This document shows positions 47,208-63,634 of a stretch of 64,000 nucleotides of DNA, piece after piece (position 1 is the stretch's first letter; each line of letters opens with the position of its first letter). Made by a program: the position numbers and the translations under genes. A model generated the notes under the pieces. That model did not search any database and was not told the DNA's origin. It saw only the letters and a program-made list of their open reading frames with translations. This stretch comes from Paenibacillus aceti (GTDB taxonomy: Bacteria > Bacillota > Bacilli > Paenibacillales > Paenibacillaceae), in the NCBI RefSeq assembly GCF_003614185.1, contig NZ_KZ987724.1:2209360-2273359 (forward strand), written 5' to 3'.

Positions 47208-47252
47208 TTGACAGGGTGGGGGTCAGTGGTTCGAGCCCACTACAGATCATTA
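47208..47252. repeat. Att core: 3' part of tRNA-Val(GAC), left copy
   Basis: 45 bp identical to 63590-63634. Read on the plus strand it contains the anticodon loop TTGACAG (GAC), GGTGG, variable loop GGGTC, T arm AGTGG-TTCGAGC-CCACT and ACAGATC for the acceptor. Here CCACC (47203-47207) also precedes the loop, so the anticodon stem is complete. No D arm or acceptor 5' strand is upstream, so this is not a whole tRNA gene. It separates elements 1 and 2. Confidence 0.85.
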
Positions 47253-47331
47253 TGCCTTATGGCACAAGGGTTTCCAGCGATTCATCCACTTATCAATAAT
47301 AGGTGGTCGATAACTGACACGTTTATATCAC

Positions 47332-47382
47332 AAAAAACCACTATCTTTAAGGACACAATCTCCTTGAAGGTGGTGGTTTTTT
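47332..47382. terminator. Bidirectional terminator-like hairpin covering the integrase ribosome site
   Basis: A 22-bp stem, fully paired including three G-U pairs, with a 7-base loop. The 5' arm begins with six A, the 3' arm ends with six T. The 3' arm contains GAAGGTGGTGG, the presumed ribosome binding site of the integrase, 8 bases before its ATG. Readthrough RNA from the tRNA side would therefore be terminated or not translated. Confidence 0.75.
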
Positions 47383-47384
47383 CT

Positions 47385-48305
47385 ATGCTATTCAAATTCG
47401 CGTTGACTGAGTTTAAAGCAGACCGAGAATATCGAAATGTGAGTGATCGTACTCTAACTGCGTACATGAATCAGTTGAATGAATTTCATCAGTATTGTGT
47501 TAATCATGACGTGGTGAATCTGGAGGATTGTACAGCATCATTCATCAAACAGTATTTACTCCATTGTAAGGAGAAAGGCAACAACCCAACAACGGTAAAT
47601 ACAAAGTTACACATCTTAAAAATCTTCTTCAATTACTTTGAAACTGAAATGGAAGTATTTACTCCCAAGACTAATCCCACTAAACGGATAATCTTTGCCA
47701 AAGAAGAAATCAAAATCGAGGTATTTTCAGACGCACATATTAAACAGATGCTTAGATATTACCAATCCCTTAAATATCGGGATAAATCGCTTTACGCTTA
47801 TCGAGATTACTTTATGATTATCTTTTTACTTGGTTCTGCTTGTCGTATCGGTGAAACTGCAAATCTTAGGTGGAAAGATGTTGATCTCGTTAATCAAATC
47901 ATTACCGTCAACGGAAAGAAACGAATAGCTAGTAGTATTCCTATGTCGGACAAGTTAAAAGCAGAGTTTTTAGAGTATCGACTGTTTATTGATCAACACT
48001 TCCCTACAATGCCCGAAATGGTGTTTACAAATCGAGACGGAAAACCATTAACCGATAATGCAATTAAGTGCATTTTCAAGCATCTAAAGGCAATCATGAA
48101 CTTTAAAGATGTTCGGCTTAGTGGGCATACGTTTCGCCACACAGCAGCGCATAGAATGTTGATCGCAGGTGCAGATGTTGGCACAATACAGAAGATGCTA
48201 CGCCATTCTAACGTTAGCATGACGCTAAGATATTTCTCTTTATGGGGAACCGCATTGGCAGAGCAAAACGAAAAGTTTAATGCATTAAATTCATTTGACC
48301 TATGA
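47385..48305 (+). CDS. int: Tyrosine integrase of element 2
   Basis: 306 residues from ATG 47385-47387. The frame is open upstream to 47070, but that extension reads through the att repeat and the hairpin and has no integrase character, so it is not used. A SAM-like core-binding domain (residues 1-95) is followed by ACRIGETANLRWKDV (Arg), GHTFRHTAAH (H-x-x-R), MLRHSNVSMTLRYF (His and Tyr). It is a short XerC-like integrase without an arm-binding domain and is clearly different from the element 1 integrase. Confidence 0.92.
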   Translation: MLFKFALTEFKADREYRNVSDRTLTAYMNQLNEFHQYCVNHDVVNLEDCTASFIKQYLLHCKEKGNNPTTVNTKLHILKIFFNYFETEMEVFTPKTNPTKRIIFAKEEIKIEVFSDAHIKQMLRYYQSLKYRDKSLYAYRDYFMIIFLLGSACRIGETANLRWKDVDLVNQIITVNGKKRIASSIPMSDKLKAEFLEYRLFIDQHFPTMPEMVFTNRDGKPLTDNAIKCIFKHLKAIMNFKDVRLSGHTFRHTAAHRMLIAGADVGTIQKMLRHSNVSMTLRYFSLWGTALAEQNEKFNALNSFDL

Positions 48306-48484
48306 CAAATCACCATCCCATAAACGACAAAACATTAGTTTTACTCAAAATACTGTCTCAGCAAACCTCAACGCTACTAAAGGAGTATCAAAGCTCATCA
48401 TTAGACCGCAAAAGGGCTATAATGTACGAAATTGAACGTTTGCGAATGAAACGAGAATCACTTATTCAAACCAAACTAATTTAA
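48302..48484 (+). CDS. Small protein coupled to the integrase (60 residues)
   Basis: Overlaps the integrase stop by 4 bases (ATGA). The product is a helical, basic protein (TLLKEYQSSSLDRKRAIMYE, then IERLRMKRESLIQ). Translational coupling suggests a role in excision or integration; it could be a directionality factor, but no HTH is seen. Confidence 0.6.
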   Translation: MTNHHPINDKTLVLLKILSQQTSTLLKEYQSSSLDRKRAIMYEIERLRMKRESLIQTKLI

Positions 48485-48500
48485 GAGGAGAGATTTAACT

Positions 48501-48815
48501 ATGACAACTTTAAAAATGACGTTTGATGTAAAGAAAATGGATGACATGAACGCTGAGGAAATGAATCAATTACTCTTCAACACTTTAGACGAAGGGAAGC
48601 ATGGATTACTCCTCTTTGTTTATCATATGGCTGGTAAGACAATGTTTGAGGATTATAATTTTTACATTCGTAATGATAAAGCTGCTAAAGACTTTATTGA
48701 TAATATTTGGGACGGAAATTTTGAAGACTTTAAAGGGAATATGCAACGCTATGTTGATAAATACATCTATTCAGTCGATGAAGTGGAAGAGGATTATTCA
48801 CACCTGATTAATTAA
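48501..48815 (+). CDS. Plus-strand accessory protein of element 2 (104 residues)
   Basis: Starts MTTLKMTFDVKKMDDMNAEE with AGAGGAGAG upstream. It is acidic and probably all-alpha, with aromatic residues near the end (QRYVDKYIYSVDEVEEDYSH). No known family recognised. Its place, following the integrase and convergent with the structural operon, is where satellites keep accessory genes. Confidence 0.6.
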   Translation: MTTLKMTFDVKKMDDMNAEEMNQLLFNTLDEGKHGLLLFVYHMAGKTMFEDYNFYIRNDKAAKDFIDNIWDGNFEDFKGNMQRYVDKYIYSVDEVEEDYSHLIN

Positions 48816-48831
48816 CTCAAAATAAATTAGT

Positions 48832-48865
48832 AGAGGGTAGTCCATAATCGGGCTGCCCTCTTTCT
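48832..48865. terminator. Bidirectional terminator between convergent operons
   Basis: AGAGGGTAGTCC, ATAAT, GGGCTGCCCTCT and a T-rich end. It separates the plus-strand integrase group from the long minus-strand operon. Confidence 0.75.
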
Positions 48866-48869
48866 ACGC

Positions 48870-50027
48870 TTAATAGAGTCCCTTAATTCGTATCCGTTGC
48901 CATGTTGATATGCGTGGATCGTCTACAGATGTTGTGAGTAGTTGCATATAAAACATATCACTTTTAGCCGTAATTGTAATTGCATTGCCTGATATTGCAG
49001 ATGTATATTTTGTTGTACTAACAGTAGATGTTTTATCGTCTGCGAAAACTTGGAATGTTACTGCATTGCTTGTAGAGACATCACCATCATAAATAGTTCC
49101 TGTAAATGTTACTGATGTATTAATAGTGATATAGAAATAGTCATCTGTCTTGTTGTTGGGTTTGCTTGATGTAATTACAATCGTCTTAACCTCTGGGATA
49201 TCCTCAACACTAATATCGACTGTATCGTATATGAAGCCATTACTGGCATTTGTGACGGTTATAGTGACATTCCCATCTGCTAGTCCACTAACAACCCCTA
49301 AACCGTCTACAGTGGCAACAAAAGCGTCTGACGTTGTGAATGTCACTGGTGCATTATTTGTACTCGTCCAATTCAATTGAAACGTGCTCCCAACAAATAC
49401 ACTAATAGGGTTACTGTTCGTTACGTTAATAGGACATGCTTTCCCATTAGCAATATTATGTTCTACATCATCTAATGCGGGATTAATTTGTGTTCTCTCA
49501 CAAGTCAGAATAGCAATCCCAGGTTGAGTAAAAGTGTCATTCGTAACTATTTTAAATTTGTTCCCCTGAATCATAAATTCATCACCACTTATGACACTCA
49601 ATTCCATTGTATGAATAGGAAGATATACAACTATCTTGTCTTGGATGAGTGTTAATACGGTTCCGTTTTTAAACGATGGATTACTATTTTCTATATAAGC
49701 AAATGCAGACTCAAACACGCACTTGTGACTGAATGTAATCTCATGTGGTAAAGGGCGTATAAGCCCCTTGTAGTGTCCGTAGCGCTTATCATTGACCTCA
49801 CTGATAACCATATACTTATTGCCGTTATAGTCAATCAGATCCCCCCGTTGAAGAGTCTCAATAGTAGATATCTTTCTATCATCATAATCTGTATTCAGAT
49901 TCGTGCTAGTATTTGTTATTGTTGCTTTTATTGGAGTGGGGCTGTTATTAACAGTTACGCTGCGACCTACATTATCAAGCATAAATTGAAAATTGGATTC
50001 GTTGTCTATATCGAATAGATTGATCAT
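48870..50027 (-). CDS. Ig-domain (Big_2) head/neck protein of element 2
   Basis: 385 residues. The first 170 residues form a beta-rich domain (LFDIDNESNFQFMLDNVGRS, then YMVISEVNDKRYGHYKGLIR) of the head-closure/neck style. Residues about 205-290 are a Big_2 repeat: PISVFVGSTFQLNWTSTNNA, then VTFTTSDAFVATVDGLGVVS and GLADGNVTITVT. A second Ig-like part follows to the end. It is last in the portal-connector group. It may be a neck protein that also meets the helper tail, or a decoration protein. Confidence 0.65.
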   Translation of the reverse strand: MINLFDIDNESNFQFMLDNVGRSVTVNNSPTPIKATITNTSTNLNTDYDDRKISTIETLQRGDLIDYNGNKYMVISEVNDKRYGHYKGLIRPLPHEITFSHKCVFESAFAYIENSNPSFKNGTVLTLIQDKIVVYLPIHTMELSVISGDEFMIQGNKFKIVTNDTFTQPGIAILTCERTQINPALDDVEHNIANGKACPINVTNSNPISVFVGSTFQLNWTSTNNAPVTFTTSDAFVATVDGLGVVSGLADGNVTITVTNASNGFIYDTVDISVEDIPEVKTIVITSSKPNNKTDDYFYITINTSVTFTGTIYDGDVSTSNAVTFQVFADDKTSTVSTTKYTSAISGNAITITAKSDMFYMQLLTTSVDDPRISTWQRIRIKGLY

Positions 50028-50070
50028 ATTGTTATCCTTTCTTATTTTGTAGATTAATTACAAAAGAAAA

Positions 50071-50123
50071 AGAAGGTCATCCCGTTACCTAGCGGATTAC
50101 ACTAGGACAATAGGACACCTTCT
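50071..50123 (-). terminator. Terminator downstream of the 52-residue membrane gene
   Basis: AGAAGGT and ACCTTCT enclose a second hairpin (CCTAG...CTAGG), followed by TTTTTC on the minus strand. Confidence 0.6.
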
Positions 50124-50154
50124 AAATTTAGTGTATACTGTTTAAAATTAATGC

Positions 50155-50313
50155 TTAGAATTGTTTTCTTGTTTTGTTTCTAACGATGCCCATGATACTA
50201 ATGATAATAGCCCCAATAAGAGCCATAAAAGGCAGTGTGGACAGGTTACCTAGTGTAAGCATCATTGTAGTAGATGCCAAGATACAAAGAACGTATAGAC
50301 CATTTTTAACCAT
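50155..50313 (-). CDS. Two-helix membrane peptide (52 residues)
   Basis: From ATG 50311-50313 with AGGGGGCGG upstream. MVKNGLYVLCILASTTMMLT is one transmembrane helix and FMALIGAIIISIMGIVRNKT the second, with a basic end. Size and topology resemble small holins, but no lysin is in the element and the role is open. Confidence 0.5.
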   Translation of the reverse strand: MVKNGLYVLCILASTTMMLTLGNLSTLPFMALIGAIIISIMGIVRNKTRKQF

Positions 50314-50385
50314 ATGTACCGCCCCCTTGAGGAATATTATGGATTTATTCAGTTGCATTATATCATATATAATAGTTACTTTATA

Positions 50386-50730
50386 CTAATGATTAAACAA
50401 CATAAATGTGCTCCCTTGTGTCCCTGAATCGCCATTAGAAGGTAACAGGCGTATCTTTTGATCAAGTTGATCAATTCGATTCTGTAGTGACTCTGCAAAG
50501 TCAGAAACAGTCATATCATCGAGTTTACGGCTTGCCATGAGTTGCGGATTATTAGCAATCGCTTCTAGGCAGGAAAGAGCCGTTTGATATATGTAACGTT
50601 TACTATTATTAAATGCTGGATTATACTCCTCTGTTGGTGATAGTGATGATTCTTCCAGGAAAATAGATAGTTCATCATCCGTGAACCCTGATTGTTGTAT
50701 TTCGAGTTTTAAACGGTCGAGATTTGTCAT
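50386..50730 (-). CDS. Head-tail connector-type protein of element 2
   Basis: 114 residues: LKLEIQQSGFTDDELSIFLE, then LSCLEAIANNPQLMASRKLD and DFAESLQNRIDQLDQK. The pattern of one helix, a variable loop and two helices is that of packaging adaptor proteins below the portal. It gives the particle a proper head opening, so only the tail is missing. Confidence 0.7.
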   Translation of the reverse strand: MTNLDRLKLEIQQSGFTDDELSIFLEESSLSPTEEYNPAFNNSKRYIYQTALSCLEAIANNPQLMASRKLDDMTVSDFAESLQNRIDQLDQKIRLLPSNGDSGTQGSTFMLFNH

Positions 50731-50763
50731 GTTTAATTACTCCTTTTTGAATTCTTGTTAAAG

Positions 50764-50786
50764 AAAAAACCGCCTTAATTGGCGGT
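50764..50786 (-). terminator. Terminator after the 211-residue membrane protein gene
   Basis: ACCGCCAATTAAGGCGGT followed by TTTTTTC on the minus strand. Confidence 0.85.
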
Positions 50787-50788
50787 CA

Positions 50789-51424
50789 TTAGTATGAAAT
50801 ATCAACAATTTGAAATTTCTTACTACTACGATTGTTATCGACAGTATAATATACTTTCTTATATATCTTTTCTCCAAGACCATTTGTTACTTCCATGTCA
50901 TATAATAATTCAATTTGATCATACGTATCTCCATATGTAAATTCAAATGAATCAGTCGATTCTCTTAGGATTTTTATCTCTGAATCACTTTTCTCACGTT
51001 CCTTATAGTATTCTAATTCTTGTTTTAAATAATCATTGAAATCTTTATACTTTTCTTTTCCATTGCCATAATTAACATCAATTTCATACATATCGTGATC
51101 CTTGGTATACGTTTTTAAGGGTTTTTCTTTATCAATTACTCTAATAAATTTATAGTCCAATACATTAATAAAATCATTGACCCCACTTTCTACATAATCA
51201 TATGTGCTCTTACCTTGCTGAATTGCCTTTATGTATTTGGCTACTGTAATCTTTGCTTTGGCTTGTGTGGTCATAAAGTTATAATAATAAAGTGATCCAC
51301 CCACAACTAAAATAACTACAACCAAAAGAGAAATAATCTTGCTTTTATGCCTTATCAGTTTATCGATGGTACTTTCCTTAGTCTCTATAGTTTCGAAATC
51401 CACTTCCACATTCCTCCAATTCAA
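50789..51424 (-). CDS. Membrane-anchored protein of unknown function (211 residues)
   Basis: One transmembrane segment at about residues 31-50 (IISLLVVVILVVGGSLYYYN) preceded by a cytoplasmic acidic start. The outside part (about 155 residues) resembles small NTF2-like or DUF4878-like domains with charged helices and strands. It lies between the connector and the portal with its own terminator, but does not look structural. Possible moron: superinfection exclusion or envelope protein. Confidence 0.5.
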   Translation of the reverse strand: MNWRNVEVDFETIETKESTIDKLIRHKSKIISLLVVVILVVGGSLYYYNFMTTQAKAKITVAKYIKAIQQGKSTYDYVESGVNDFINVLDYKFIRVIDKEKPLKTYTKDHDMYEIDVNYGNGKEKYKDFNDYLKQELEYYKEREKSDSEIKILRESTDSFEFTYGDTYDQIELLYDMEVTNGLGEKIYKKVYYTVDNNRSSKKFQIVDISY

Positions 51425-52089
51425 TATTTCCCATCATTCTACCATTTTCGATAATATAGGTCTATGAGATTAGTAAAATATCAGGTTAGTGGTCTGAAGT
51501 GTTTTTATTAATTTTGGTCATCCAATTTTTATTTTTTAATTTTTCAAAATTAGTTCAGTTATGCAGAAATGGGTATGCTAGAGGCTCACTTTTTCGATTA
51601 GGGGTAGTCAACTTTCCCACTCATTTCACCCTAATTCCTCCACAATATCCCACGATTATCTTCAACATACCTCATCATAATATGTAGAATAGTGCAAACT
51701 TCACCCCGAAATAACCTATTTACTAGTGAATTGGATAATATTAGTCGATAATCAGACCACTAACTATATGATATAGTGGTCTAGTAGGTCTGATTTTCCT
51801 TGATATGACTAGGATTGAAGGGTAATTATATATAATGGAAGTAATATCCATAACTCGTGCATAACTGATATTATACACGGGTTTTTTATGCAGAAACAAA
51901 AAAGAAGAGGAGAAAAAAATTGTAAAAAAACGAGAGTTTAAAAATGAATACATTGAAATATGTATTAAAGAACACAAATTGGTACCCGATACTAAATTTA
52001 TATAATAACAAGAGCGCATGATGCAACATAGTTCCCTAATTATTATCTCTAATGTTTCCTTACTCTTCCCTACTCATTAAGACTCTTGA
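51425..52089. other. 665-bp intergenic region with structured plus-strand elements
   Basis: No convincing gene. AATCAGACCAC...GTGGTCT and a second GGTCTGATT (51750-51795) fold together. A plus-strand terminator lies at 51852-51888. The region may encode a small RNA on the plus strand. It separates the portal and 211-residue genes. Confidence 0.45.
51852..51888 (+). terminator. Orphan plus-strand terminator
   Basis: AACTCGTGCATAA with TTATACACGGGTT and TTTTTT. No plus-strand protein gene is upstream, so it may end a small RNA. Confidence 0.55.
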
Positions 52090-53397
52090 TTACTTAGCTT
52101 TATTCTTATATACTCCATTTCCCTCACTGATAATCAAATCCATCTCACTTGCTACATCACTCACATATGGATTGTGCTTCAACACAGACTCTAAACTAAT
52201 GCTATTCATTTCTCTCAATGTCTGCATATTATCTATAATATCCTTTGCAGAAGAAGGCATTGCATACTGAAAAGTTATAGTTATGCTGTCCCATTGTTCA
52301 TTTGTATACCTCATACCTTGTTTATCTAACAGCGTTCTAAACTTAGTCAATCTATCCTTTAATCCTTCTCTTATGTATCGCTCTGTCATCATGGCTTTAA
52401 GGTTAGCCACACTATATAGTAACTTCAATGATACTTCTGAAATGTTGGAAATCTCAGCACGTCCAAAGGCTACACTAGGCGTACCGCTCACATCCATCAA
52501 TGACATAGTTAGATGGTTGTACAATGTTTTAAATGCTTCATGATCAAACTCATTATTTTCGAATTTGAAATCAGCATCGCTATCTAATGTTATCCCACCG
52601 CCTACAATTTCAGTAGGCAAAGCATCTTCACCAGTCAAACGTTGTCCTTTTACAACTGGAATACCAGTGATAAATTTGTAAAAGCCGTCCACTGACTTAG
52701 AAATCATGTCTTCCATACTGTCAATAATATTAATGTAATCCTCTAAATCACTACGTCCAAACACATCATCAATGGGGTTATCATTACGATACAATACAGG
52801 CAATCCAGTTAAATTTGTATATGTCCCTCTATGCTTAATATCTCCACCGTTGTTGTAATACTTCTCAACTCGATCATTATAGTAAACATTCCAAAAACTA
52901 ACATTGTTAACTGTGTAACTCTCTACGAATCCAATGTATTCATTATCATCATCTACAACAGGATAAGAGTCCGCTGCATCAATCAATTTACTTTTGACTT
53001 TGCCATCCTTGATATATACATACTCCCAACTGTTACCGTATCTATATACGCTTTGGACAATATCAAAGTCTAGGTTCTCGTATCCATTCTTGTAAATGCT
53101 TTGAATTGCTGATACAACTTCCTTGTCTCCACTGTACGTAACGTTATTACCAACTAAATAAGCCGTAGCATAATCAATCAATCTGGAACCATATGAAAGC
53201 AATATCTTTCTGGGCATAAATGGTTTACCGTTGAACATCTCAGGAGGTCTATTATTAATCTTATGCTGTCCTGCTAAATAGAGTTTTTTATCTATGATAT
53301 CGTTAATCCTCATTTGATTCCTGGCATCATTCACGAAATCAACAAACCAATTACTACTGTATCGATTTTCATTAATAAACTGTTCAATACTACTCAT
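52090..53397 (-). CDS. Portal protein of element 2 (SPP1 gp6-type)
   Basis: 435 residues. It has the start typical of SPP1-type portals (a helix, then YLAGQHKINNRPPEMFNGKP and GSRLIDYATAYLVGNNVTY), the clip region near VFGRSDLEDYINIIDSMEDM, and SGTPSVAFGRAEISNISEVS at the crown. It is unrelated to the element 1 portal, so this head is an independent one. Confidence 0.9.
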   Translation of the reverse strand: MSSIEQFINENRYSSNWFVDFVNDARNQMRINDIIDKKLYLAGQHKINNRPPEMFNGKPFMPRKILLSYGSRLIDYATAYLVGNNVTYSGDKEVVSAIQSIYKNGYENLDFDIVQSVYRYGNSWEYVYIKDGKVKSKLIDAADSYPVVDDDNEYIGFVESYTVNNVSFWNVYYNDRVEKYYNNGGDIKHRGTYTNLTGLPVLYRNDNPIDDVFGRSDLEDYINIIDSMEDMISKSVDGFYKFITGIPVVKGQRLTGEDALPTEIVGGGITLDSDADFKFENNEFDHEAFKTLYNHLTMSLMDVSGTPSVAFGRAEISNISEVSLKLLYSVANLKAMMTERYIREGLKDRLTKFRTLLDKQGMRYTNEQWDSITITFQYAMPSSAKDIIDNMQTLREMNSISLESVLKHNPYVSDVASEMDLIISEGNGVYKNKAK

Positions 53398-53418
53398 ATA
53401 ATTATCGCCCCTTATCGT

Positions 53419-55047
53419 CTATACGTACCACTTATTAGCCTTCTTAGCCTGAATACACAAACCATGAGAGATAACCAAATCATCATGATTGTTCCTGCCA
53501 CCTTTATTGCCTGTTTTACCTTTTGAATCCTCTATAAACAATTGCATTTGCTGTAATGTCTCTTGACTGTTAATTAATATGTATCCACGTTCAAAGTTCT
53601 CTTTTAAATCGCTAATCATAATACTTTTGGTGACCTCAGTAGTGAGCCATCCTAGTATCAATTTGCGTTTACCTCTATTATCAAAAGTCTTATGCTTATA
53701 TAAATTCATATATTGATAATCTTCACGTAATCTCTGGATAACTGGCAATCCATAACTATTCTTTTCGATTGCCAAATAAGCGTAATTATACAGTCTGCCT
53801 ACTATATTCAGGAACTCGGCAAACTCATAAACGCTGATTTTATTATTATGAAAACTTAACACCTCTACACCTTCAGCATCCATTAAGGTCAATGTAGATG
53901 AATCACCGCCTGAACCACTTGATACATCTGAACCACCATAGAATTTTACATTATGCTTAGGTAAATGGTAGACACTCAAACCTTTTCCCAACCATTTATG
54001 TAATGTCTGCGGTAAACCTTTTTTCAATATTTCCTTATCAATAGGAGGGAAAAGGTTATTCAAGCGGTCAATTATTTTACCTTGATCAAATACATTCCTG
54101 CCACTTGTTTTAAACGCCTCAGTGTGTGTACTAGGATACTCTGTTTGAAAGTCCACTGTTGACATACTGGTTAGTTTCCACTGTCTCCAGCACAACATGG
54201 CGTAGGTTGCACCAGCTTTATGTAGTCGCTTATCTTCATCAGTTGTTAGATCACTCTTATTCATTAATTGACCACGATTAATAGACTTGTACCATCCAAC
54301 CGCATCATTAATCTCAGTTTTAAATTGAGTTTTATGTGCGTCACTAATCCAACCGTAAAAGTATGCTTTAAAATTTGTATTACCTTTAAATGATTTATTG
54401 AACACCTCATAAAAATAATTACTTGTACCGTTGGCTGTACTTTCGATTACAATTTTACTGTCAGGATTTTTGGCTAGTGCTTGGGTAACACTTGTTAATA
54501 ACTTAGCCTGATCAATCTCATAAAAAGCATACTCACTAAGTAATATGTATTGGTATGTAGATCCACGTCCAATGTGCTCGGCTGGTGGTGAAATCTGTAT
54601 ACGGCTGCCGTTAGATAGTAGCAATTCATCTTTGTTATCACGAACAGTTACAGGGAAGGTATATATATCCCTTGGTAGATTATCATTCATCAATTTTAAA
54701 CGTTCAAACAACGTTGATACTTGCTTTCTATCTAACGAGACGATCATGTAACTACTGTTAGGACGATTAACCGCATTCCACAGACATATAGCAAGGGATA
54801 CTGTAGAAAATCCAATTTGACGGCTTTTGAGGATTATATTGAACTTTCCCATAGATTCAACAAAATCTGCCTGCTCCTTGTTAAATTTAAAGGGAATCAA
54901 TTCACCAAAGTTGTCAAGAATCTTCACAAAGTCAGTACAGAAGAGGGGGAAGTTACCCATAATCTCATTGAATCGTTCCTGTTTGATATCCTTTGTTTTC
55001 TTAATAGTTTTTTTGTTGCTTGTAAGTGGTTTAACCTTTAATGCCAT
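53419..55047 (-). CDS. Terminase large subunit of element 2
   Basis: 542 residues. Walker A is KSRQIGFS (about 74-81), the usual form of this family. Walker B is YILLSEYAFYE with the catalytic Glu. The nuclease half starts with YGGSDVSSGSGGDSSTLTLM and ends with a DD near the C-terminus (GRNNHDDLVISHGLC). It is distinct from the element 1 large subunit. Confidence 0.9.
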   Translation of the reverse strand: MALKVKPLTSNKKTIKKTKDIKQERFNEIMGNFPLFCTDFVKILDNFGELIPFKFNKEQADFVESMGKFNIILKSRQIGFSTVSLAICLWNAVNRPNSSYMIVSLDRKQVSTLFERLKLMNDNLPRDIYTFPVTVRDNKDELLLSNGSRIQISPPAEHIGRGSTYQYILLSEYAFYEIDQAKLLTSVTQALAKNPDSKIVIESTANGTSNYFYEVFNKSFKGNTNFKAYFYGWISDAHKTQFKTEINDAVGWYKSINRGQLMNKSDLTTDEDKRLHKAGATYAMLCWRQWKLTSMSTVDFQTEYPSTHTEAFKTSGRNVFDQGKIIDRLNNLFPPIDKEILKKGLPQTLHKWLGKGLSVYHLPKHNVKFYGGSDVSSGSGGDSSTLTLMDAEGVEVLSFHNNKISVYEFAEFLNIVGRLYNYAYLAIEKNSYGLPVIQRLREDYQYMNLYKHKTFDNRGKRKLILGWLTTEVTKSIMISDLKENFERGYILINSQETLQQMQLFIEDSKGKTGNKGGRNNHDDLVISHGLCIQAKKANKWYV

Positions 55048-55075
55048 TTCATTTCCTTCCTTTCACTTTTAACGC

Positions 55076-55110
55076 AAAAAAAGAGGAATCCTATAAATAA
55101 GGAATCCTCT
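55076..55110 (-). terminator. Terminator after the small terminase gene
   Basis: AGAGGATTCCTTATTTATAG followed by GATTCCTCT and TTTTTTT on the minus strand. Confidence 0.85.
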
Positions 55111-55133
55111 GAAAATAGTTACTATTTGATTAT

Positions 55134-55502
55134 CTACTCACCTTGAAAATACTTTTGCGCTTCTCTGTAATGCTCATTGATTTCCTTTTGCAATTTCAAC
55201 ATTAATTCAACATCTTTAGGTTGTGGATCATTGTTAACTCGTTCCTTGACCTTTATGTATATCTCTTCCAAGTCCTTACCTTGATTCATCTGAAGCACAA
55301 GGGAGGTTATATGCTTAAACTGTTCGCTATTTTCCCATTCCCTAAAACTATCTAGACTTTTAACCTTCATTTTCAACAGTAGTTCTTCTTCATTCGCTGG
55401 AACCTTATCCAATTGTCTCCAAAGATTGAAACGCCATTTCACATAAACTTTTCGCTTAATGCTCAGGCTCCGTATTACATCATATATACTTACATTTTCC
55501 AT
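55134..55502 (-). CDS. Probable small terminase subunit of element 2
   Basis: 122 residues, directly upstream of the large subunit. The first 50 residues could form an HTH (YDVIRSLSIKRKVYVKWRFN); the rest is helical (SFREWENSEQFKHITSLVLQ), ending with an oligomerisation helix. The assignment is mostly positional. A dedicated small subunit lets the satellite choose its own DNA for packaging. Confidence 0.6.
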   Translation of the reverse strand: MENVSIYDVIRSLSIKRKVYVKWRFNLWRQLDKVPANEEELLLKMKVKSLDSFREWENSEQFKHITSLVLQMNQGKDLEEIYIKVKERVNNDPQPKDVELMLKLQKEINEHYREAQKYFQGE

Positions 55503-55716: not shown

Positions 55717-57171
55717 TTATCTTATTAAAGCTTCATATTGTCGCCTAGGTAATAACTTTTTTAAATCTTTATTTGTGAAATAGAATGTCATACATAAATC
55801 GAAACTATTCAACTTATCCGTAGTAAATAAGTTATCACTTCGTTCTGAATTCGGAACTAAGTCTTCAATACTTATTCTATATAAATTGGGCAACTTCTTA
55901 GCCAATCCACCTATTTTAGGAATTCTGTTCCGTTCAACAATCTCAATAACACCAAGTTTCTCCAGTTTATTGGCTTGTTGCTTAACTGCTTGGTCGTATA
56001 GTCCCGTTGCTTCCTGTATCATCGTATAAGGCATAAAAAACACACCTTTACCGTCTGCGTGGCGTTTACTATGTATTAACATTGCATATGTAATTAATTT
56101 CTGGTTCTTCTCTGGACACTTTTCAATAATCCATTTCATTTCATCGTATGAAACTGTTAAATCTCTGTTACTGGCTGCTAAATTATAATTTTTCTCATAC
56201 ATATTTTTAACTGTAGCGTCAATTTCTTTGTAACATTCATTAAGTGGAGTTGAATATAAATTTGTATCCTGTCTCTCCATCCAGTTATATAATTCCAATT
56301 TACATTGTTCCTGATCAAATCCTTGATATTTTAAGTATAAACCAACCAAAAACATAGAATTATTACGGCTACCTTGCGCTTTTAGCCCGTTTAAAAACAA
56401 ATTTTTTGCATGGTCAATTGAATAGTCCTCAGACTGATAATAACTAGGTAACGGTTTATGTGAACTAATAGCATTTTCTAGTTTAGGAATTTCCCTTTTA
56501 GCATTTTTGATTTCTATTTCAGCGGCTCCAATTAAATCTATAATCAATGTTTTACTCGTTTTCTTGATAGTGAACAGATATTCTTCTGATTCATTTTTAT
56601 CCATAACCGCTAATCCAGTTTCAATCAAACAGAATCCGCAATAATTACCCGTTTTCTGATGAATACCTAAAGGAATCTTCACACCTTGTTTATCTGTTGG
56701 ACGAAATTCAACTTCTCCATCAATAAAATGTTGCCTTATATCAGCTTCATCTAAGACAGAATCAAATAATTTTCTTGCGTGGGAAATTTGAATAGGTTCA
56801 TCAGAAAATAATTCAATATGATATCCTTTGCCGCCACTAGAACTAATGTAATGATCATGTAATCCTAAATTGTTTAAAGTGTTACATACTGCGTAAGTCA
56901 TCCATTTGGCTAGTTCAGGATTATTTCCAAAATCAACATCAAAAGTTATGAACTTAGTAAAAACCTTACCTCCAAATGTGCCAATTGTATGTTTCCCATC
57001 TAGATGATTTTGATATTGCCAAGGTTGAATATACTTTGTCTTCCTGCCGTTTCTAACTTCACCTTTTATGTATGTTCGGTATCCAATTGGTTCAGGATAT
57101 TGGATTAAATAATGCCCCCATTGTATAAGATATAAGTCGTCTAGTTTTTCCTTGATTTTCGGTTTATCCAA
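55717..57171 (-). CDS. Archaeo-eukaryotic-type primase with winged-helix C-terminus
   Basis: 484 residues. The primase core has FITFDVDFG (two Asp, residues 78-80) and SSSGGKGYHIE (residues 111-119), matching the TOTE/PrimPol class of AEP primases. A helical middle part follows. Residues about 360-450 are a winged-helix domain (MPYTMIQEATGLYDQAVKQQ, then ANKLEKLGVIEIV). There is no helicase motif. It starts DNA synthesis for the satellite and implies autonomous replication after induction. Confidence 0.85.
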   Translation of the reverse strand: MDKPKIKEKLDDLYLIQWGHYLIQYPEPIGYRTYIKGEVRNGRKTKYIQPWQYQNHLDGKHTIGTFGGKVFTKFITFDVDFGNNPELAKWMTYAVCNTLNNLGLHDHYISSSGGKGYHIELFSDEPIQISHARKLFDSVLDEADIRQHFIDGEVEFRPTDKQGVKIPLGIHQKTGNYCGFCLIETGLAVMDKNESEEYLFTIKKTSKTLIIDLIGAAEIEIKNAKREIPKLENAISSHKPLPSYYQSEDYSIDHAKNLFLNGLKAQGSRNNSMFLVGLYLKYQGFDQEQCKLELYNWMERQDTNLYSTPLNECYKEIDATVKNMYEKNYNLAASNRDLTVSYDEMKWIIEKCPEKNQKLITYAMLIHSKRHADGKGVFFMPYTMIQEATGLYDQAVKQQANKLEKLGVIEIVERNRIPKIGGLAKKLPNLYRISIEDLVPNSERSDNLFTTDKLNSFDLCMTFYFTNKDLKKLLPRRQYEALIR

Positions 57172-57187
57172 TTAAGGTTTATCCTTC

Positions 57188-57358: not shown

Positions 57359-57441
57359 TTTCCTATTCCCTCCATTTCCTGAAAAATCACCCTACACATT
57401 AAGTCTATTTTTCAACCTTCTGTTTGTAAGGAGAATGACAC

Positions 57442-57472
57442 AAAAAAGGAACAAGCCCAATCGACCTGTTCC
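57442..57472 (-). terminator. Terminator of the fibre/capsid operon, now cut off by the IS
   Basis: GGAACAGGTCGATTGGGCTT, then GTTCC and TTTTTTG on the minus strand. The nearest upstream gene on this strand is the fibre gene at 58956, on the other side of the IS. Confidence 0.75.
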
Positions 57473-57494
57473 AGTGCTGTTTTATATGTGAGCG

Positions 57495-58841
57495 TTTTGC
57501 AGTAATCTGAGGCCTTGAGCCGTAAGGATTTTCGGACATAAAAAAGGGACTTCACCCCAACTTGGAGAAGTTTTCAAGTGACCAAACCCAAAAACCTCAA
57601 GGATGGAGGAAGTCACTTTGTATATTCTCCAAGAATGTCTGTTTTCCTTCGAAGAACTTTTAAAAATTCAACCCAAGGAGAGATTGCCGATCTTCTTCAG
57701 TTCTCTCGATCTGAGACCGTATGCCAAGGAACTGAGAAGCCGTTCACCCCGAGGCGCTGAGGGATACTGCAGACAAGGTATTCTACGAGCACTCTTGGCT
57801 GCGCCGCTTGAAGGAATAAGTACCTTTTCAGGGTTGCATAAGCGTTTGGATACGGATCTCCGGTTTCGTTATCAGTGTGGTCTTCCGCTGGATCGAGAAG
57901 CTCCTTCCATATCCACATTAAGCCGAGTTTTCTCAGAACTGACGAGAAAGGACTTGGCAAAACGGCTTTTTGAGGATTTGGTCACACGCTGTCAGCAGGA
58001 AGGTATCATAGAAGGCAGTAACGTCGCCATAGACAGCGCCGCTCTCCGCGCTTACGAGAAAAAGCAGCCCAAACGCAAAAGCGAGCAAACGGGTAATGCG
58101 AACTGGGGCGCAAAAATTGATTCCTTCGGCAATAAAATCACATGGTTTGGTTACAAAATTCATCTGGCGGTCGATACGAAAAGTGAATTGCCGATCGCCT
58201 TGGAAGTAACGCCGGCGCATGTCAATGATGGAGAAATGGCGCCGGGCCTGATCGAGAAAACAGCGTCCAGGACGAGCACACGATTTTTCATACTCGATGC
58301 GGGCTACGACCAAATGAAAGTTTATGAGGCCGCCCGCAACGTCAAGGCACAAGCCATCATTCCCCTTAATCTGCGGGGGGAGAAGGAACCGCCTGCTGGC
58401 ATGACCTCGAACGGAACACCGTGCTGTTCCATGGGTTATGCGATGACATACTGGGGAGTTGACGGCGATATGCATAAATTTCGCTGCCCGCATGCCACGG
58501 GTAAAGTCGACTGTCCGCTTGGCATGGCTGCCTGCTCGTCTTCAAACTATGGAATGGTCGTCAAAGTAAATGCGAAGGATGATCTCCGGCGATACAGCAT
58601 CCCTCATCGGGATACAAAGCGTTGGAAGGAACTTTACAATGAACGAACCAGCGTAGAACGCTGCAACTCCCGATTGAAAACCTATTTGACGGCAGACGCC
58701 GCACATGTCCGGGGCATTCAGAAAGTCACAACTCACCAGTATTTGAATGCCATTGTTCTGCTTGCATCTGCGCTCGCCGTTTCTCATCATTCAAAACGGG
58801 CTGCCGCTTAAAAAACGAGCTGTTCTAAAATTCTGCAAGTC
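57495..58841. mobile_element. Insertion sequence, IS4/IS5 superfamily (IS1182-like)
   Basis: Contains one transposase gene. The GC content is clearly higher than the flanking DNA. Approximate ends are taken from the weak inverted match TTTTGCAG (left) and CTGCAA (right); the true ends and any target duplication are not resolved. It separates the fibre gene from its terminator. Confidence 0.65.
57603..58811 (+). CDS. DDE transposase
   Basis: 402 residues. Catalytic residues can be placed: Asp in NVAIDSAALRAY, Asp in FFILDAGYD, Glu in YNERTSVERCNSRLK, which has the Y-x2-R-x3-E-x6-K pattern of this superfamily. An N-terminal DUF772-type domain (GYCRQGILRALLAAPLEGIS) is present. The reading frame is intact, so the IS may be active. 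Confidence 0.85.
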   Translation: MEEVTLYILQECLFSFEELLKIQPKERLPIFFSSLDLRPYAKELRSRSPRGAEGYCRQGILRALLAAPLEGISTFSGLHKRLDTDLRFRYQCGLPLDREAPSISTLSRVFSELTRKDLAKRLFEDLVTRCQQEGIIEGSNVAIDSAALRAYEKKQPKRKSEQTGNANWGAKIDSFGNKITWFGYKIHLAVDTKSELPIALEVTPAHVNDGEMAPGLIEKTASRTSTRFFILDAGYDQMKVYEAARNVKAQAIIPLNLRGEKEPPAGMTSNGTPCCSMGYAMTYWGVDGDMHKFRCPHATGKVDCPLGMAACSSSNYGMVVKVNAKDDLRRYSIPHRDTKRWKELYNERTSVERCNSRLKTYLTADAAHVRGIQKVTTHQYLNAIVLLASALAVSHHSKRAAA

Positions 58842-58955
58842 TGCCCTTTTCTTCACCCATATAATACCATTTTCGAAAATTACCCCTTAACGACAGTGAA
58901 TATGCTATCGCTTCTTCTCTGAAACGGAATTATGCAAAACACTCATGTAGTTTAG

Positions 58956-60281
58956 TTATGTAAAATCGTAACCATTTGGAGCCGATACAGTTACCTTATT
59001 CGTACCAACAACATTTATATCTTTACCTTCGATAGTTACAGTACCATTATCATGGGCTTTAATAGTGATTCCCATATCATCTAACTTAACCTCACGAATT
59101 GCCCCTGTATTACTCCTGTGATATGTAATATTGAGATTATCTGGTTCTTTTTTGATAAAAGCTTTTGCAGACTCGGAAGTTTTACCGTCACCTCTGCCTA
59201 ACTGCATTACTGGATAAGAGTCAACTCCCTGACCTTCGAGATAGAGTTTAAACTTTTCAACTGGTTCATATGTAAGATTATAAAATGGATATGATGTTGT
59301 CTCAGTGGTCAATTGTGATTTAGCAGCATCAACCCAATACAAAAGATTACCATTACCATCCTTTGCGTGTTGACGGTCTGTAATCGTACCTGTAACGAGT
59401 TTAAAATAATTATCACGTGCGTAGACATAATCAACACTGTCACCAATAGAATCCGATTTATCCAACGTTTTCAATGCATTAACAGTAAGGTTATTTATAA
59501 ATCCATCTTCAGCAGTTAGCGTTCCTGCTTGAATAAATTGAGCGTCAAGGGCTCCAACGCCAACTATATCCCAATTATTCATATAAAATTTTCGAGTTGT
59601 GGAATCCAATAAAGCGGTATTGTTTCCGTCTGTAACTTTAACCTTTTTAAATTTTGCTTGTCCAGACATATCGGCATGTGTTCTTAATTTGCGTAATTTC
59701 TTTTTGTCTTGAATCCTATACTCAAATTTGTTGATTTTAATATGATACTTGTCAGTTGCATCTAATTGATACAGTATACATTTTCCGCCTACTTTTTCAT
59801 CAACAACATGGTTATAAGCTCCTAGTATGGCTTGGTGAGGGCGAACACTTAGCTTGAATTGTTGATATATATAATCTATAGCGTCATCGCTATTTGCTCC
59901 TGCTGCCCCTAGATCATTATTTCTGATTATGTCTGGTAGAGTTTCAAAATTAAGCAAATTGCTAATTGTGTACATGACATACCTACCATTGTTATCAACT
60001 GTTAGTACGTAAACGCCAATTTCACCTTTATATTTGTCATATGCGTCCTTGGTGATTTTTTTAATATCGGAAAGTTGCTGATTACTAAATTCAATTTCCT
60101 CAAAAATTTGCTCAACTGCTGGTAAGTATCCCATACCAAAAACAATCTTATCACCAAAGACTCTGGCTTTCTCGCAGTTGTCATGTATGTGATAACTAAG
60201 ACCATTTTTTTCGGTGGATACTCTTGTATCACTGTAAATCCACGCTTTACCTTCATATCCTAGATAAACGATCATGCTCAT
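58956..60281 (-). CDS. Ntn-hydrolase-like domain fused to a fibre/spike protein
   Basis: 441 residues. Residues 1-190 look like a proteasome/HslV-type Ntn-hydrolase: SMIVYLGYEGKAWIYSDTRV at the start (Ser 2 as possible nucleophile after Met removal), then ARVFGDKIVFGMGYLPAVEQ and a central GAYNHVVDEKVGG. Residues about 230-441 are fibre-like (AGTLTAEDGFINNLTVNALK, then LQLGRGDGKTSESAK and a GTVTIEGKD end). It is in the capsid operon of an element that has no other tail gene. It may be the satellite's own receptor or spike component. The Ntn call is by eye. Confidence 0.6.
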   Translation of the reverse strand: MSMIVYLGYEGKAWIYSDTRVSTEKNGLSYHIHDNCEKARVFGDKIVFGMGYLPAVEQIFEEIEFSNQQLSDIKKITKDAYDKYKGEIGVYVLTVDNNGRYVMYTISNLLNFETLPDIIRNNDLGAAGANSDDAIDYIYQQFKLSVRPHQAILGAYNHVVDEKVGGKCILYQLDATDKYHIKINKFEYRIQDKKKLRKLRTHADMSGQAKFKKVKVTDGNNTALLDSTTRKFYMNNWDIVGVGALDAQFIQAGTLTAEDGFINNLTVNALKTLDKSDSIGDSVDYVYARDNYFKLVTGTITDRQHAKDGNGNLLYWVDAAKSQLTTETTSYPFYNLTYEPVEKFKLYLEGQGVDSYPVMQLGRGDGKTSESAKAFIKKEPDNLNITYHRSNTGAIREVKLDDMGITIKAHDNGTVTIEGKDINVVGTNKVTVSAPNGYDFT

Positions 60282-60463
60282 ATAGTCACCTTAAGATACT
60301 CAATTTGATCTGCTTTAAAACTAACAGGTTCCTTTGTGTCAAAGTTAAAATTTAACTCATATCCCTTAGATAATCCGTCAATTACTTGTTGTACCTGTTC
60401 GCTTGTGTACTCTGCCCATCCATTTGCCTGAGTTCCATCAGTAAATTTAAATGATAGTTTCAT
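60278..60463 (-). CDS. Small protein of element 2 (61 residues)
   Basis: Starts MKLSFKFTDGTQANGWAEYT, ends EPVSFKADQIEYLKVTI. A small beta-type protein. It overlaps the fibre gene by 4 bases, so it is probably coupled to it. Unknown. Confidence 0.55.
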   Translation of the reverse strand: MKLSFKFTDGTQANGWAEYTSEQVQQVIDGLSKGYELNFNFDTKEPVSFKADQIEYLKVTI

Positions 60464-60486
60464 TTTATTATTATCTCCTTTAATTT

Positions 60487-60675
60487 CTATTTTTTAGTAT
60501 TATCATGTGTCAAAATATAATTACAGTAACTTGCATAATGATCACTTGTTAGTGTGTTTCTTCCGTTTTCGTGAGCGCAAACATATGAGATTGATCTATC
60601 AATATGCTTTGCAATTTCTGTTAGTGTGAGTTTTCTAGAAATGCGTTCAAGTCTCCATTTAGTCCTATCGTCCAT
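60487..60675 (-). CDS. Small XRE-type regulator in the capsid operon (62 residues)
   Basis: HTH region RKLTLTEIAKHIDRSISYVC, then AHENGRNTLTSDHYASYCNY. It lies between the capsid terminator and the next gene. It could regulate the element 2 late genes; no other repressor was recognised in the element. Confidence 0.65.
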   Translation of the reverse strand: MDDRTKWRLERISRKLTLTEIAKHIDRSISYVCAHENGRNTLTSDHYASYCNYILTHDNTKK

Positions 60676-60715
60676 TATATAAACACTCCTTTAGTTCCAG
60701 TTCAAAATTGAAGAT

Positions 60716-60744
60716 AAAAAAGAGAGTAGGAACCCCTACCCTCT
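60716..60744 (-). terminator. Terminator after the capsid gene of element 2
   Basis: AGAGGGTAGGGGTTCCTACT, then CTCT and TTTTTT on the minus strand. It may limit readthrough from the strongly expressed capsid gene. Confidence 0.85.
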
Positions 60745-60753
60745 GGTTATGTA

Positions 60754-61617
60754 TTAGGCAATTGCAAACGATGCGGCAGCTTTACTATTAAGTAGCTTCA
60801 ATCCGAATTGAGTTTCTAAGTAAACTGATTGTTTAGAACCGCTAACTGGTTCTACTTGTCCGTGAAATGGAATCAAGATACCCAACTCTAAATATTCAGG
60901 ATTAACTACAAACAGTTTATTTGTGATTTTCTCTGTTAATACGAACCGAACACGACCAAATGGGGAAACATACTCCTCCACATCAACACCTGCTAGGCTG
61001 TCTTTAGCAAAATACTGGAAGTTTTTGAAGTCATTAAGTTTAAGTTTCATTTGTGCTGGTAAATAGCAAAGCATATTATCACCGCTACCAGCGTTATACA
61101 TCTTCTCGATAGTTTCAAGAAACTTTGTTTCCGTGAATGTTGCATTTGTCACCTGGTTAGCCGTATTAATTTGTTCGAGAATTCCATCTGTCTTATATGT
61201 TTTCGTTGCAGATTCAAACCCTTTAACCCCATTGATTAACCTGTCTTCAATAGCTAACTTGATAGCCTTAGTTTTATTTGCAATATCCTTTGCCAAAAGA
61301 TCACCAATACCAACCGCCGAACTGTGTTGTGCCGTATTTGATACTGCCGCAGTAACCCCAATCAATTCGCAAAAATTTGACATAGGTTCGAGTGAGTCAT
61401 CAACACGGTCTGGTGCGTCTGCTGATTCTGCTAAAGTTACGGCTGCCGCCTCATTAATAGCTTCTTCAATCCAATTCATAGTTGGTGACGTTGCTTTTAC
61501 AGTCTTATTTAGTAAAAGTGTAGTAAAAGGGGTTTTAACTGGTGTTGTTTGGATGAGAACATCCTTCATATCAATGTTTTGACCTGGAACAAAATTATCA
61601 GTTGTAAAAGTATTCAT
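60754..61617 (-). CDS. Major capsid protein of element 2 (DUF5309/SU10-like)
   Basis: 287 residues. The HK97-fold pattern is visible: IQTTPVKTPFTTLLLNKTVK in the N-arm, then FCELIGVTAAVSNTAQHSSA, NTANQVTNATFTETKFLETI (the long helix) and FVLTEKITNKLFVVNPEYLE. It is smaller than and unlike the element 1 coat protein (332 residues). Confidence 0.85.
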   Translation of the reverse strand: MNTFTTDNFVPGQNIDMKDVLIQTTPVKTPFTTLLLNKTVKATSPTMNWIEEAINEAAAVTLAESADAPDRVDDSLEPMSNFCELIGVTAAVSNTAQHSSAVGIGDLLAKDIANKTKAIKLAIEDRLINGVKGFESATKTYKTDGILEQINTANQVTNATFTETKFLETIEKMYNAGSGDNMLCYLPAQMKLKLNDFKNFQYFAKDSLAGVDVEEYVSPFGRVRFVLTEKITNKLFVVNPEYLELGILIPFHGQVEPVSGSKQSVYLETQFGLKLLNSKAAASFAIA

Positions 61618-61643
61618 TATTTCAACATCTCCTAAAATTTGTA

Positions 61644-62057
61644 TTATTTAAACAAAGCCTTGATCATACCAAGAGTATCCCCTTTAGCTGCTGACCGTTC
61701 GTATGCACTCGTTTGTTTGTGATTATCTGGTACGAATGACTTATTTACTGTCCGTGCTTCCAAAACTGTAGAAAGGTTATCAATTTTACTTTGCATTTCA
61801 CTTTCATCATCAGCACTAACATAGTCAATAAAGTCAATTAGGTTTGCCTTTTCCAATGCAGACACAAGTCTTTGATGATTCAACTCAGCCTGTAGTTGTT
61901 TAATCATCTTTTCCTGTTCGCTTTCTTCTTTGGGCTGAAACTTGAGCAATTCATCCCGTTCAGCAATCACTGGGGCTAATTGTTCTGATTCCCAAGTCGC
62001 CTTTTCATCAGCAATAATTTGATTGATATGAGTTTGTTGTTCTTCTGTAAATTCCAT
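61644..62057 (-). CDS. Scaffolding protein of element 2
   Basis: 137 residues, directly upstream of the capsid gene. It is charged and helical (LKFQPKEESEQEKMIKQLQA, then AYERSAAKGDTLGMIKALFK at the end, the capsid-binding helix). No protease is encoded in the element, so the head is probably assembled without proteolysis. Confidence 0.75.
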   Translation of the reverse strand: MEFTEEQQTHINQIIADEKATWESEQLAPVIAERDELLKFQPKEESEQEKMIKQLQAELNHQRLVSALEKANLIDFIDYVSADDESEMQSKIDNLSTVLEARTVNKSFVPDNHKQTSAYERSAAKGDTLGMIKALFK

Positions 62058-63589
62058 TTAAAACACCTTCCTTTTGATTAGATTTGAAGTTCAATTTTGA
62101 AATCAAAGAATAGGAAAGAAGCCTAGCCGAGTGACTAGACTTAATTCCATCATCCACTAATGAGATGATAAGTTAGAGGAGATAAATAATATTAAATTGA
62201 AACTAAAATTAAAGCACTATTGACCGAGTTGACTGGACTTAGTTAGGTTCAACAAACTAAATCATAATAATCAATCCTCTCAATAATGTAGAAGGCTAAA
62301 GCCCTCTATGAACCGTATATCAACCCCAAGGAAGGTATAAGCAAGGATATACGGATTATACAGGGATTTATACTCTCTATCTATATATAAAAAATATTAT
62401 TTTTATTCTCTCTTTGCTTTTCTGTCTTATAATTTCTTCTGTGTTCCTTCCAACACAGCTCACAATATTTCCTAATTTTACCTCTGTTTTCGATCTTGTT
62501 AGGTTATTGTAGTGTCCTCCATAGTAGACACTTATCTTTTATAGTTAATAATATTATTAATTCCTTTGAGACGACTAAAATAATCAGTTAAATCAACGTA
62601 TTATTAGAATAATGAGCTAAGGTAGTTTTACTATTAGAAATAGATGACATACAAATTACGTTGATTTTATTGAGTTTTATGATGATTTCTAAATGTCGGA
62701 TTTTTGCCTATTTCTATTAATTCTATCCCATTCTCTCTGTTTCTCTAGTCTATTTTCCTTCCTACATGACTCACAGAATTTAGTACGATTGGATTTCTTT
62801 TCTGTTTTCGATCCTGTTAGGATTATGTAGTCCCTCCATTAAAGACGTTTATCTTTTCATGTATTCATATATTTCACGTTTTAAAATTCACTAAAAAACA
62901 CAATGAAATCAAGTGATTTTAAAATTACTTATAGAAATTATTTTAAAGATAGCAAATATAAATATGTAAAAAAACGTTGATTTTATTGAGTTATTTATTG
63001 TTTTCTAAATGCTAACAGATTCATCTTGCTCCCAATTTTATATTCTCCCTTTAATTTTAGTTTTGATAAGAAAAGTACCCCTTATCATATGGGAACCTTT
63101 GATACCATTAAAAAACCCTTGTTATATATGGGAATTTCACTATATTTATTTTAAAAGTGTGTCGTTTTTGGTGAAACCCCCTATACTTTGGACATTAGGT
63201 TAGGATATGCTCTCCCTTAAAGACCATTATGTTTTTAGTACATTTTAATTTCGATTTGTAAAAAATCCTTTATGTATAAGGGTTTTTGGTTTCAAGTAAA
63301 GATTCATTTGCGATGTTATATGTATATAAAGATTAAAATATCCAATGTTTATATGGATTTATACAAGAAAGCTATTTGCTAACAATCTTTTGCCCTTCTT
63401 TTGCGCATAAGCTCCCTTTGATATTCTTTTCTATGTATATCGCGACACGAACTACAATATTTTCTACTGACCACTTTACTTTGTTTCTCGAACACTTTAT
63501 AATAATACCAAGTTGTTTTTAAAGTTAGTGGTTTATTGAATATAGACGTATAATAACCCTTTTGGGACGTACATTTGACCTCTGTTTAT
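62058..63589. other. 1.5-kb AT-rich region without an intact gene
   Basis: It holds imperfect repeats spaced by about 315 bp and three frame-disrupted remains of a small Cys-finger protein on the minus strand. Shared segments include ACGTTGATTTTATTGAGTT at about 62658 and 62973. The region may hold the promoter of the capsid operon and possibly the replication origin of the satellite. Confidence 0.5.
62395..63420 (-). pseudogene. Degenerate copies of a small Cys-finger gene
   Basis: Minus-strand frames at about 62400-62470, 62705-62790 and 63380-63480 end with RKYCELCWKEHRRNYKTEKQ, FCESCRKENRLEKQREWDRI and RKYCSSCRDIHRKEYQREL. Each has CxxC followed by a basic helix. In the first two the upstream GGAGG/ATG lies in a different frame, so they appear decayed. 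None has a proper start in frame. Confidence 0.45.
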
Positions 63590-63634
63590 TTGACAGGGTG
63601 GGGGTCAGTGGTTCGAGCCCACTACAGATCATTA
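63590..63634. repeat. Att core, right copy (end of element 2)
   Basis: 45 bp identical to 47208-47252. The CCACC anticodon stem of the left copy is missing here, so identity with the tRNA starts at the anticodon loop. It is followed directly by a strong terminator, as expected at the chromosomal end of the former tRNA locus. Confidence 0.85.

Follow-up and report, generated by a model that had tools for sequence, protein, structure and literature searches.

A probable capsid-forming phage satellite with a siphophage-type neck protein in Paenibacillus aceti

The window analysed here is a stretch of 64,000 nucleotides of Paenibacillus aceti (contig NZ_KZ987724.1), and its subject is an integrated element at positions 47208 to 63634, originally predicted to be a capsid-forming phage satellite without tail or lysis genes. 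A perfect 45-bp direct repeat forms its ends: attL (47208-47252, plus strand), which includes the 3' part of tRNA-Val(GAC), and attR (63590-63634, plus strand), the second copy. The core pattern of the repeat occurs twice in the 64-kb window, against zero occurrences expected by chance. The unit measures 16,382 bp from repeat to repeat, or about 15 kb without the insertion sequence (IS) that it carries, which agrees with the size first estimated. A third copy of the repeat core lies 57.7 kb leftward in the same genome, within an intact tRNA-Val(GAC) gene; a siphoprophage of 57.7 kb and the element of 16.4 kb therefore stand in tandem at one attachment site, the first with an integrase of its own at 45718-47019 and the second with one at 47070-48305. 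A fourth copy is found in another tRNA-Val on contig C4 of the same genome. The G+C content of the element is mostly 30-38%, higher at the IS, and that of the siphoprophage mostly 40-46%.

The minus strand of the element reads, in order, a probable scaffold gene, an SU10-type capsid gene, a helix-turn-helix (HTH) gene, genes of 61 and 441 codons, the IS on the opposite strand, an AEP primase gene, a probable gene for the terminase small subunit (TerS), the gene for the large subunit (TerL), an SPP1-type portal gene, genes for proteins of 211, 114 and 67 amino acids (aa), and a neck gene. The integrase gene and a pair of small genes are read from the opposite end. This confirms the predicted order of capsid first, primase in the middle, and terminase and portal downstream. 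Seventeen proteins were scanned against Pfam and PHROGs, a set that leaves aside small frames, for example 51741-52019 and the frames at 62.1-63.6 kb.

Five of the predicted functions are borne out by family matches. The tyrosine integrase (47070-48305, plus strand) matches PF00589 (6.6e-30) and, from residue 105, phrog_1; because its conserved part begins near this residue, at about 47382, the first part of the frame, which runs across attL, is probably not translated. The primase (55717-57171, minus strand) combines PF22548 (1.7e-10) with a PriCT_1 domain and a replication-initiator-like C-terminal part (phrog_5362, phrog_678). TerL (53419-55047, minus strand), at 542 aa the longest frame of the element, matches phrog_2 (2.6e-31) and PF17289 (4.6e-5), and the portal (52090-53397, minus strand) matches PF05133 (8.7e-58) and phrog_64 (2.2e-55). 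The major capsid protein (60754-61617, minus strand) matches PF17236 (4e-60), phrog_1328 (1.7e-44) and the PDB profiles 9ny2 and 7z45, and its gene is present in a single copy in the genome. The frames of TerL, portal and capsid are all intact. The predicted scaffold and small terminase subunit stand as probable assignments. The scaffolding protein (61644-62057, minus strand) has weak matches to PF14265 (3e-4, below the cut-off) and phrog_172 (5.5e-4), and its family is found beside the capsid gene in 68 of the 101 related loci profiled below. TerS (55134-55502, minus strand) has no match itself; it is placed by its position before TerL and by a family alignment in which 11 of 40 members match phrog_24579, 'terminase small subunit', the best at 9.8e-5. 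Among the 17 scanned proteins there is no match to a tape measure, tube, chaperone or clear lysis family; two spanin PHROGs at 50789-51424, with E values of 0.22 and 0.42, are at noise level.

The last gene of the element (48870-50027, minus strand) encodes a neck protein of the head-closure type with an immunoglobulin-like C-terminal part (Big_2, 1.9e-7) and a match to phrog_939, 'head protein'; four of 53 family members match the Hc1 PHROG. The full-length protein has no tblastn match in the phage records. The 188-aa form of relative L005 is 28.8% identical (E 8e-5) to ORF201 (open reading frame 201) of Psychrobacillus phage Perkons, the gene of which sits between the capsid and tape measure genes, and has weak matches to Mammaliicoccus phage phi127 and Bacillus phage vB_BcoS-136. 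The terminase of vB_BcoS-136 is annotated as a homologue of YonF, which we take to be an SPbeta gene, and for this reason the Perkons-type phages are labelled SPbeta-like here. Compared by hhalign, the satellite neck profile matches Perkons ORF201 with a probability of 97.2% (E 3.9e-11) and a 408-aa prophage protein of genome G142 with one of 99.9% (E 4.1e-36) over 343 columns. In pairwise comparison with the G142 protein, the neck protein of the window is 25% identical (E 5e-24) and the best satellite 39% (E 6e-58). A neck homologue stands upstream of a tape-measure match in six prophage loci from five genomes. As far as sequence comparison can tell, the protein is homologous over its full length to the neck protein of SPbeta-like siphophages, a type that joins long tails, and this supports one part of the predicted connector.

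A candidate adaptor, by position, is the 114-aa protein (50386-50730, minus strand), whose gene is found in 75 of the 101 loci and always directly before the neck gene. Thirty-six members of its family give only scattered weak PHROG matches, and there is no sensible PDB match. By hhalign it fails against the adaptor and the head closure protein of Enterococcus phage VEsP-1 and against eight phage adaptors, and it has no relation to the small neck genes of phi127, Perkons and vB_BcoS-136. The neck profile itself reaches 0.3% against the VEsP-1 head closure protein; these failed comparisons double as negative controls for the match to Perkons.

The element belongs to a family. TerL and capsid queries brought up small contigs first, and a TerL alignment was then used as the family query. 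It finds 108 relatives among viral contigs, and among the best 80 of these, 75 lie on contigs shorter than 20 kb, many of which are fragments. In named genomes it finds 20 loci, in Paenibacillus, Fictibacillus, Bacillus, Heyndrickxia, Piscibacillus, Caproiciproducens, Anaerophilus and several Clostridia assemblies. A capsid search of genome contigs with the window protein alone found nothing, and a plasmid search returned distant TerLs, the best at 27%. In a sample of 296 Paenibacillaceae genomes, ten (own genome included) have TerL matches with E values of 2e-200 or lower, the next-ranked match having 2e-73. Seven of the nine other satellite genomes were inspected, and six show the full plan; the seventh, G018, is without recognisable scaffold and capsid. 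Five loci from the next block of TerL matches belong to another type of prophage, in which TerL is longer and neighbours of 627-661 aa occur.

The gene plan and the size are conserved across this family. Of the 101 loci profiled, some of which are one contig fetched twice and many of which are cut, all match TerL, 98 the portal, 86 the TerS-like protein, 68 the neck protein, 67 the capsid and 59 the integrase. Their conserved order is scaffold, capsid, HTH, then TerS, TerL, portal, cargo, the 114-aa gene and neck. Flanking repeats of 25-97 bp delimit nine of 21 loci examined (L155, L156, L157, L159, L105, L106, L107, L120 and L088) and enclose 13,909-17,171 bp; of the remaining 12, two have 14-bp matches only and ten have no repeat, several of these because the locus is cut. 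ARAGORN places six of the nine at tRNA-Val(GAC) and one at tRNA-Sec, L088 being left out. The conserved order holds in all nine, and the longest of the frames called in them has 599 aa. A literature search met no Paenibacillus satellite family, and we make no claim that the family is unpublished.

The family stands far from known phages. In 50,697 phage records, the best-ranked matches of TerL, capsid and portal are 25.8%, 24.8% and 24.3% identical, all matches of the three are below 60%, and the capsid reaches 26.9% over part of its length with VEsP-1. In a TerL tree, 55 family rows lie on one side of a branch (100/98) and seven phage, prophage or plasmid rows on the other; the tree is midpoint-rooted and its outside sample is small.

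Within the family, the capsid gene has a history of its own. In 15 loci, TerL is 58-80% identical to that of the window; the capsid is only 23-26% identical in ten of them and gives no match at 1e-3 in the other five. Conversely, 12 loci with a capsid 47-70% identical to that of the window have a TerL of only 41-52%. In the capsid tree, the window falls among nine rows that share a branch (100/100) and is separated from its neighbours in TerL. The integrase, 56-83% identical among Paenibacillus-type relatives, and the scaffold (38-53% against 33-39%) track TerL and not the capsid. This suggests that the capsid of the window represents a minority lineage in the family, while its TerL, portal, scaffold and integrase are of Paenibacillus type. 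Because scaffold and integrase follow TerL, the capsid gene has apparently been exchanged within the family without its scaffold.

A comparison with known satellites places the element close to the capsid-forming phage-inducible chromosomal islands (cf-PICIs). According to excerpts from PMC10690885 and PMC10803314, these are integrated elements measuring about 14-17 kb that bring integrase and primase along with a capsid, portal, terminase and connectors of their own and have no tail genes. Of this plan, the element shares the integrase and primase inside the att-bounded island and its own major capsid protein, portal and TerL; the probable TerS, the neck protein with the candidate adaptor and the lack of recognised tail-assembly genes would fit it as well. 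The predicted match to cf-PICIs is supported as far as a capsid-encoding, tail-less satellite goes; membership in the described cf-PICIs is not supported. The element has an SU10-type capsid and a scaffold, which set it apart from cf-PICIs by their description, and its order (capsid, primase, terminase-portal, then neck genes) counts as a further difference. An AlpA-type regulator is typical of PICIs; the AlpA family has no match among the scanned window proteins, where the 62-aa weak HTH protein is present. A head maturation protease and an HNH nuclease are part of the defining set quoted from PMC10690885. The protease has no match among the 17 window proteins; one 'peptidase' PHROG at 4e-9 is found in the relatives, in one member, among 80 non-core frames with 25 of 64 families listed. 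The HNH endonuclease has no match in the 17 proteins or among those 25 families.

Other systems share less. Canonical PICIs and Staphylococcus aureus pathogenicity islands (SaPIs) are described in the same excerpt as being without capsid and portal genes of their own and as remodelling helper capsids, in contrast to the element, which has both. The Streptomyces satellites MulchRoom and MiniFlayer have, according to the passages on them in PMC10690885, their own TerS, TerL, portal, capsid, scaffold and adaptor and tails thought to be helper-derived; they differ, compared by description, in being actinobacterial and in their virulent helpers, terminal repeats and lack of an obvious replicase. 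The SPbeta-like siphophages (Perkons, vB_BcoS-136, phi127) share the homologous neck protein, and are tailed phages of 134-161 kb with their own TerL, capsid and tails. The phages with SU10-type capsids (LUZ24-like and others, such as Pseudomonas phage UFV-P2 and VEsP-1) share the capsid fold family at 23-27% identity and have full tails (VEsP-1).

The anatomy, the unit size, its conservation and the neck homology are properties of the sequence itself. They lead us to read the element, with a probability of about 0.83, as a capsid-forming phage satellite that takes its tails and lysis from a long-tailed helper. A helper phage would induce the element, which would excise from its tRNA-Val(GAC) site and replicate with its own primase. 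Its terminase and portal would package its DNA into its own small SU10-type head, its neck protein would close this head, and the helper would supply tails and lysis. By analogy, the element may work like a cf-PICI; its relation to the published radiations is judged by description only, and we treat it as a separate lineage because of its SU10-type capsid and because the searches turned up neither a head maturation protease nor an HNH nuclease. A fuller version, that this is an old satellite lineage spread over Bacilli and Clostridia, unrelated to described cf-PICIs, that keeps an SPbeta-type neck for docking the tails of large SPbeta-like siphophages and swaps its capsid gene between members while its own packaging genes are kept, is tentative and falls slightly short of an even bet.

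Several points weigh against the satellite reading. We infer induction by a helper, an own head with own packaging, and helper tails and lysis from the genes alone. The 441-aa protein (58956-60281, minus strand) carries a minor-tail-protein domain in its C-terminal part (phrog_6211, 5.4e-31, residues 197-425), and because of this match the predicted absence of tail genes is to be narrowed to an absence of tail-assembly genes. The 114-aa protein is a candidate adaptor with its position as sole basis, all sequence comparisons having failed. Two relatives among the nine delimited (L088 and L120) have a fragmented TerL, so that some family copies are decayed. The check for tail genes in these nine covers 80 of their 83 non-core frames, and no tail family is among the 25 of 64 PHROG families listed, which include replication, regulation, holin (two members), the one peptidase and unknowns. 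The own genome has no SPbeta-like TerL of the type searched for, and the six genomes of the 296 with such a TerL do not overlap with the ten satellite genomes, numbers too small to judge by. Finally, the tape measure of the neighbouring siphoprophage matches five of the six SPbeta-like neck loci at 1e-72 to 2.5e-22, which weakens the case against this neighbour as tail donor.

The remaining explanations differ in what they make of these genes. The adjoining siphoprophage and the inserted IS could point to a deletion remnant of a complete siphophage, a possibility that the original prediction had raised. This is scarcely credible. The same gene plan and small size recur in distant relatives, with no tail family among the families listed for them, the best-ranked phage matches are only 24-27% identical with no close phage relative among the records, and TerL, portal and capsid are intact; the relatives largely refute it. 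It is very improbable that the element is a self-sufficient small phage whose neck protein and fibre-like 441-aa protein form a short or unusual tail. The Ig-like part of the neck protein, the minor-tail-like domain and the holin-like genes in some relatives would fit such a phage, yet no lysis gene is recognised in the window element, the neck protein is of the kind that joins long tails, and the 441-aa family occurs in only eight of the 101 loci, an unrelated 270-300-aa protein taking its place in most others. We consider it unlikely that the element belongs to one of the published cf-PICI radiations and is therefore already known as a kind. Excerpts from PMC10803314 report cf-PICIs in Bacillaceae with an average of 14 kb, and PMC11389934, in the part cited, describes three distinct radiations of cf-PICI capsids, one of which might be that of this element; the SU10-type capsid and the protease and HNH, unmatched in the window and in the listed families of the relatives, speak against this.

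The identity of the helper is a narrower matter. The neck protein points, with about an even chance, to tails of the SPbeta-like siphophage kind. The original prediction had named the neighbouring siphoprophage as a possible tail donor, and this sub-case of the satellite reading, whose odds are not to be added to it, appears rather doubtful. The two are integrated in tandem at the same tRNA-Val site, and the phages with the related neck protein have tape measures similar to that of the neighbour, so that the neighbour's tails may belong to the same general type. The neck profile, however, has no detectable relation to the neighbour's head-closure candidate (probability 3.5%), nor the 114-aa protein to its adaptor (0.1%), and genomes G350, G284 and G198 have no tape-measure-like gene by eye among the frames of at least 350 aa read within 20 kb on either side. 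A search of the own genome with the Perkons portal was empty and had no positive control.

The tail-less, head-encoding plan is already known from cf-PICIs in Bacillaceae, as the excerpts from PMC10803314 describe; new here are the neck homology and the capsid exchange. If the satellite reading is correct, an enduring satellite way of life based on tail-less heads has evolved on at least one further occasion in Gram-positive bacteria, this time with another type of capsid. Satellites detected from sequence usually come with no clue to their helper, and the neck homology supplies a direct and testable one as to its class. With the capsid gene alone exchanged, one may ask how capsid, scaffold and portal stay compatible.

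The other genes of the element are small or variable. Two follow the integrase on the plus strand: o60 (48302-48484), a small conserved protein with matches in five of the 101 loci, and a 104-aa protein of unassigned function (48501-48815) with no relatives there. On the minus strand, the 67-aa hypothetical protein (50155-50358) likewise has no relatives in the 101 loci, and the 61-aa hypothetical protein o61 (60278-60463) is found in two. The 62-aa HTH protein (60487-60675, minus strand), directly downstream of the capsid gene and present in 64 loci, matches HTH_31 weakly (0.0059). The 211-aa protein (50789-51424, minus strand; two loci) has one likely membrane helix and occupies a variable cargo position between the portal and 114-aa genes, which in the relatives holds 83 frames in 51 clusters. 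Defence genes were considered for this site, and PADLOC matched none of 49 cargo proteins tested, the 211-aa protein included. The IS transposase (57603-58811, plus strand; PF01609, 3.7e-21) sits between the primase and 441-aa genes, inside no recognised gene; terminal repeats were searched for and not found. For the 441-aa protein, an Ntn-hydrolase-like (N-terminal nucleophile) N-terminal domain, proposed from a motif in its sequence, has no support in Pfam or PDB, and the protein has no solved relative in PDB. The 270-300-aa protein of unassigned function, between HTH and primase at L005:8373-9257 and in 55 more loci, has no Pfam, clear PHROG or PDB relative.

Promoter and terminator scans stayed at chance level. 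At the attR end, 1.5 kb (62100-63590) holds no frame longer than 64 aa and contains degenerate copies about 317 bp apart; a minus-strand frame of 38 aa (63379-63495) has two CxxC-like pairs. One family member, L109, comes from an assembly that bears the name Chryseobacterium sp. ISL-80, far from Bacillota and possibly mislabelled. Loci L162-L169 are Paenibacillaceae prophages whose TerL is a sister type; they have a neighbour of 627-661 aa and, near housekeeping genes, frames of 1478-1595 aa. Elsewhere in the own genome (L202:22-2694, C1 at about 5.125-5.128 Mb), a transposase-split integrase is followed by a small o60-like gene, and beyond it lies a second long tape-measure-like frame.

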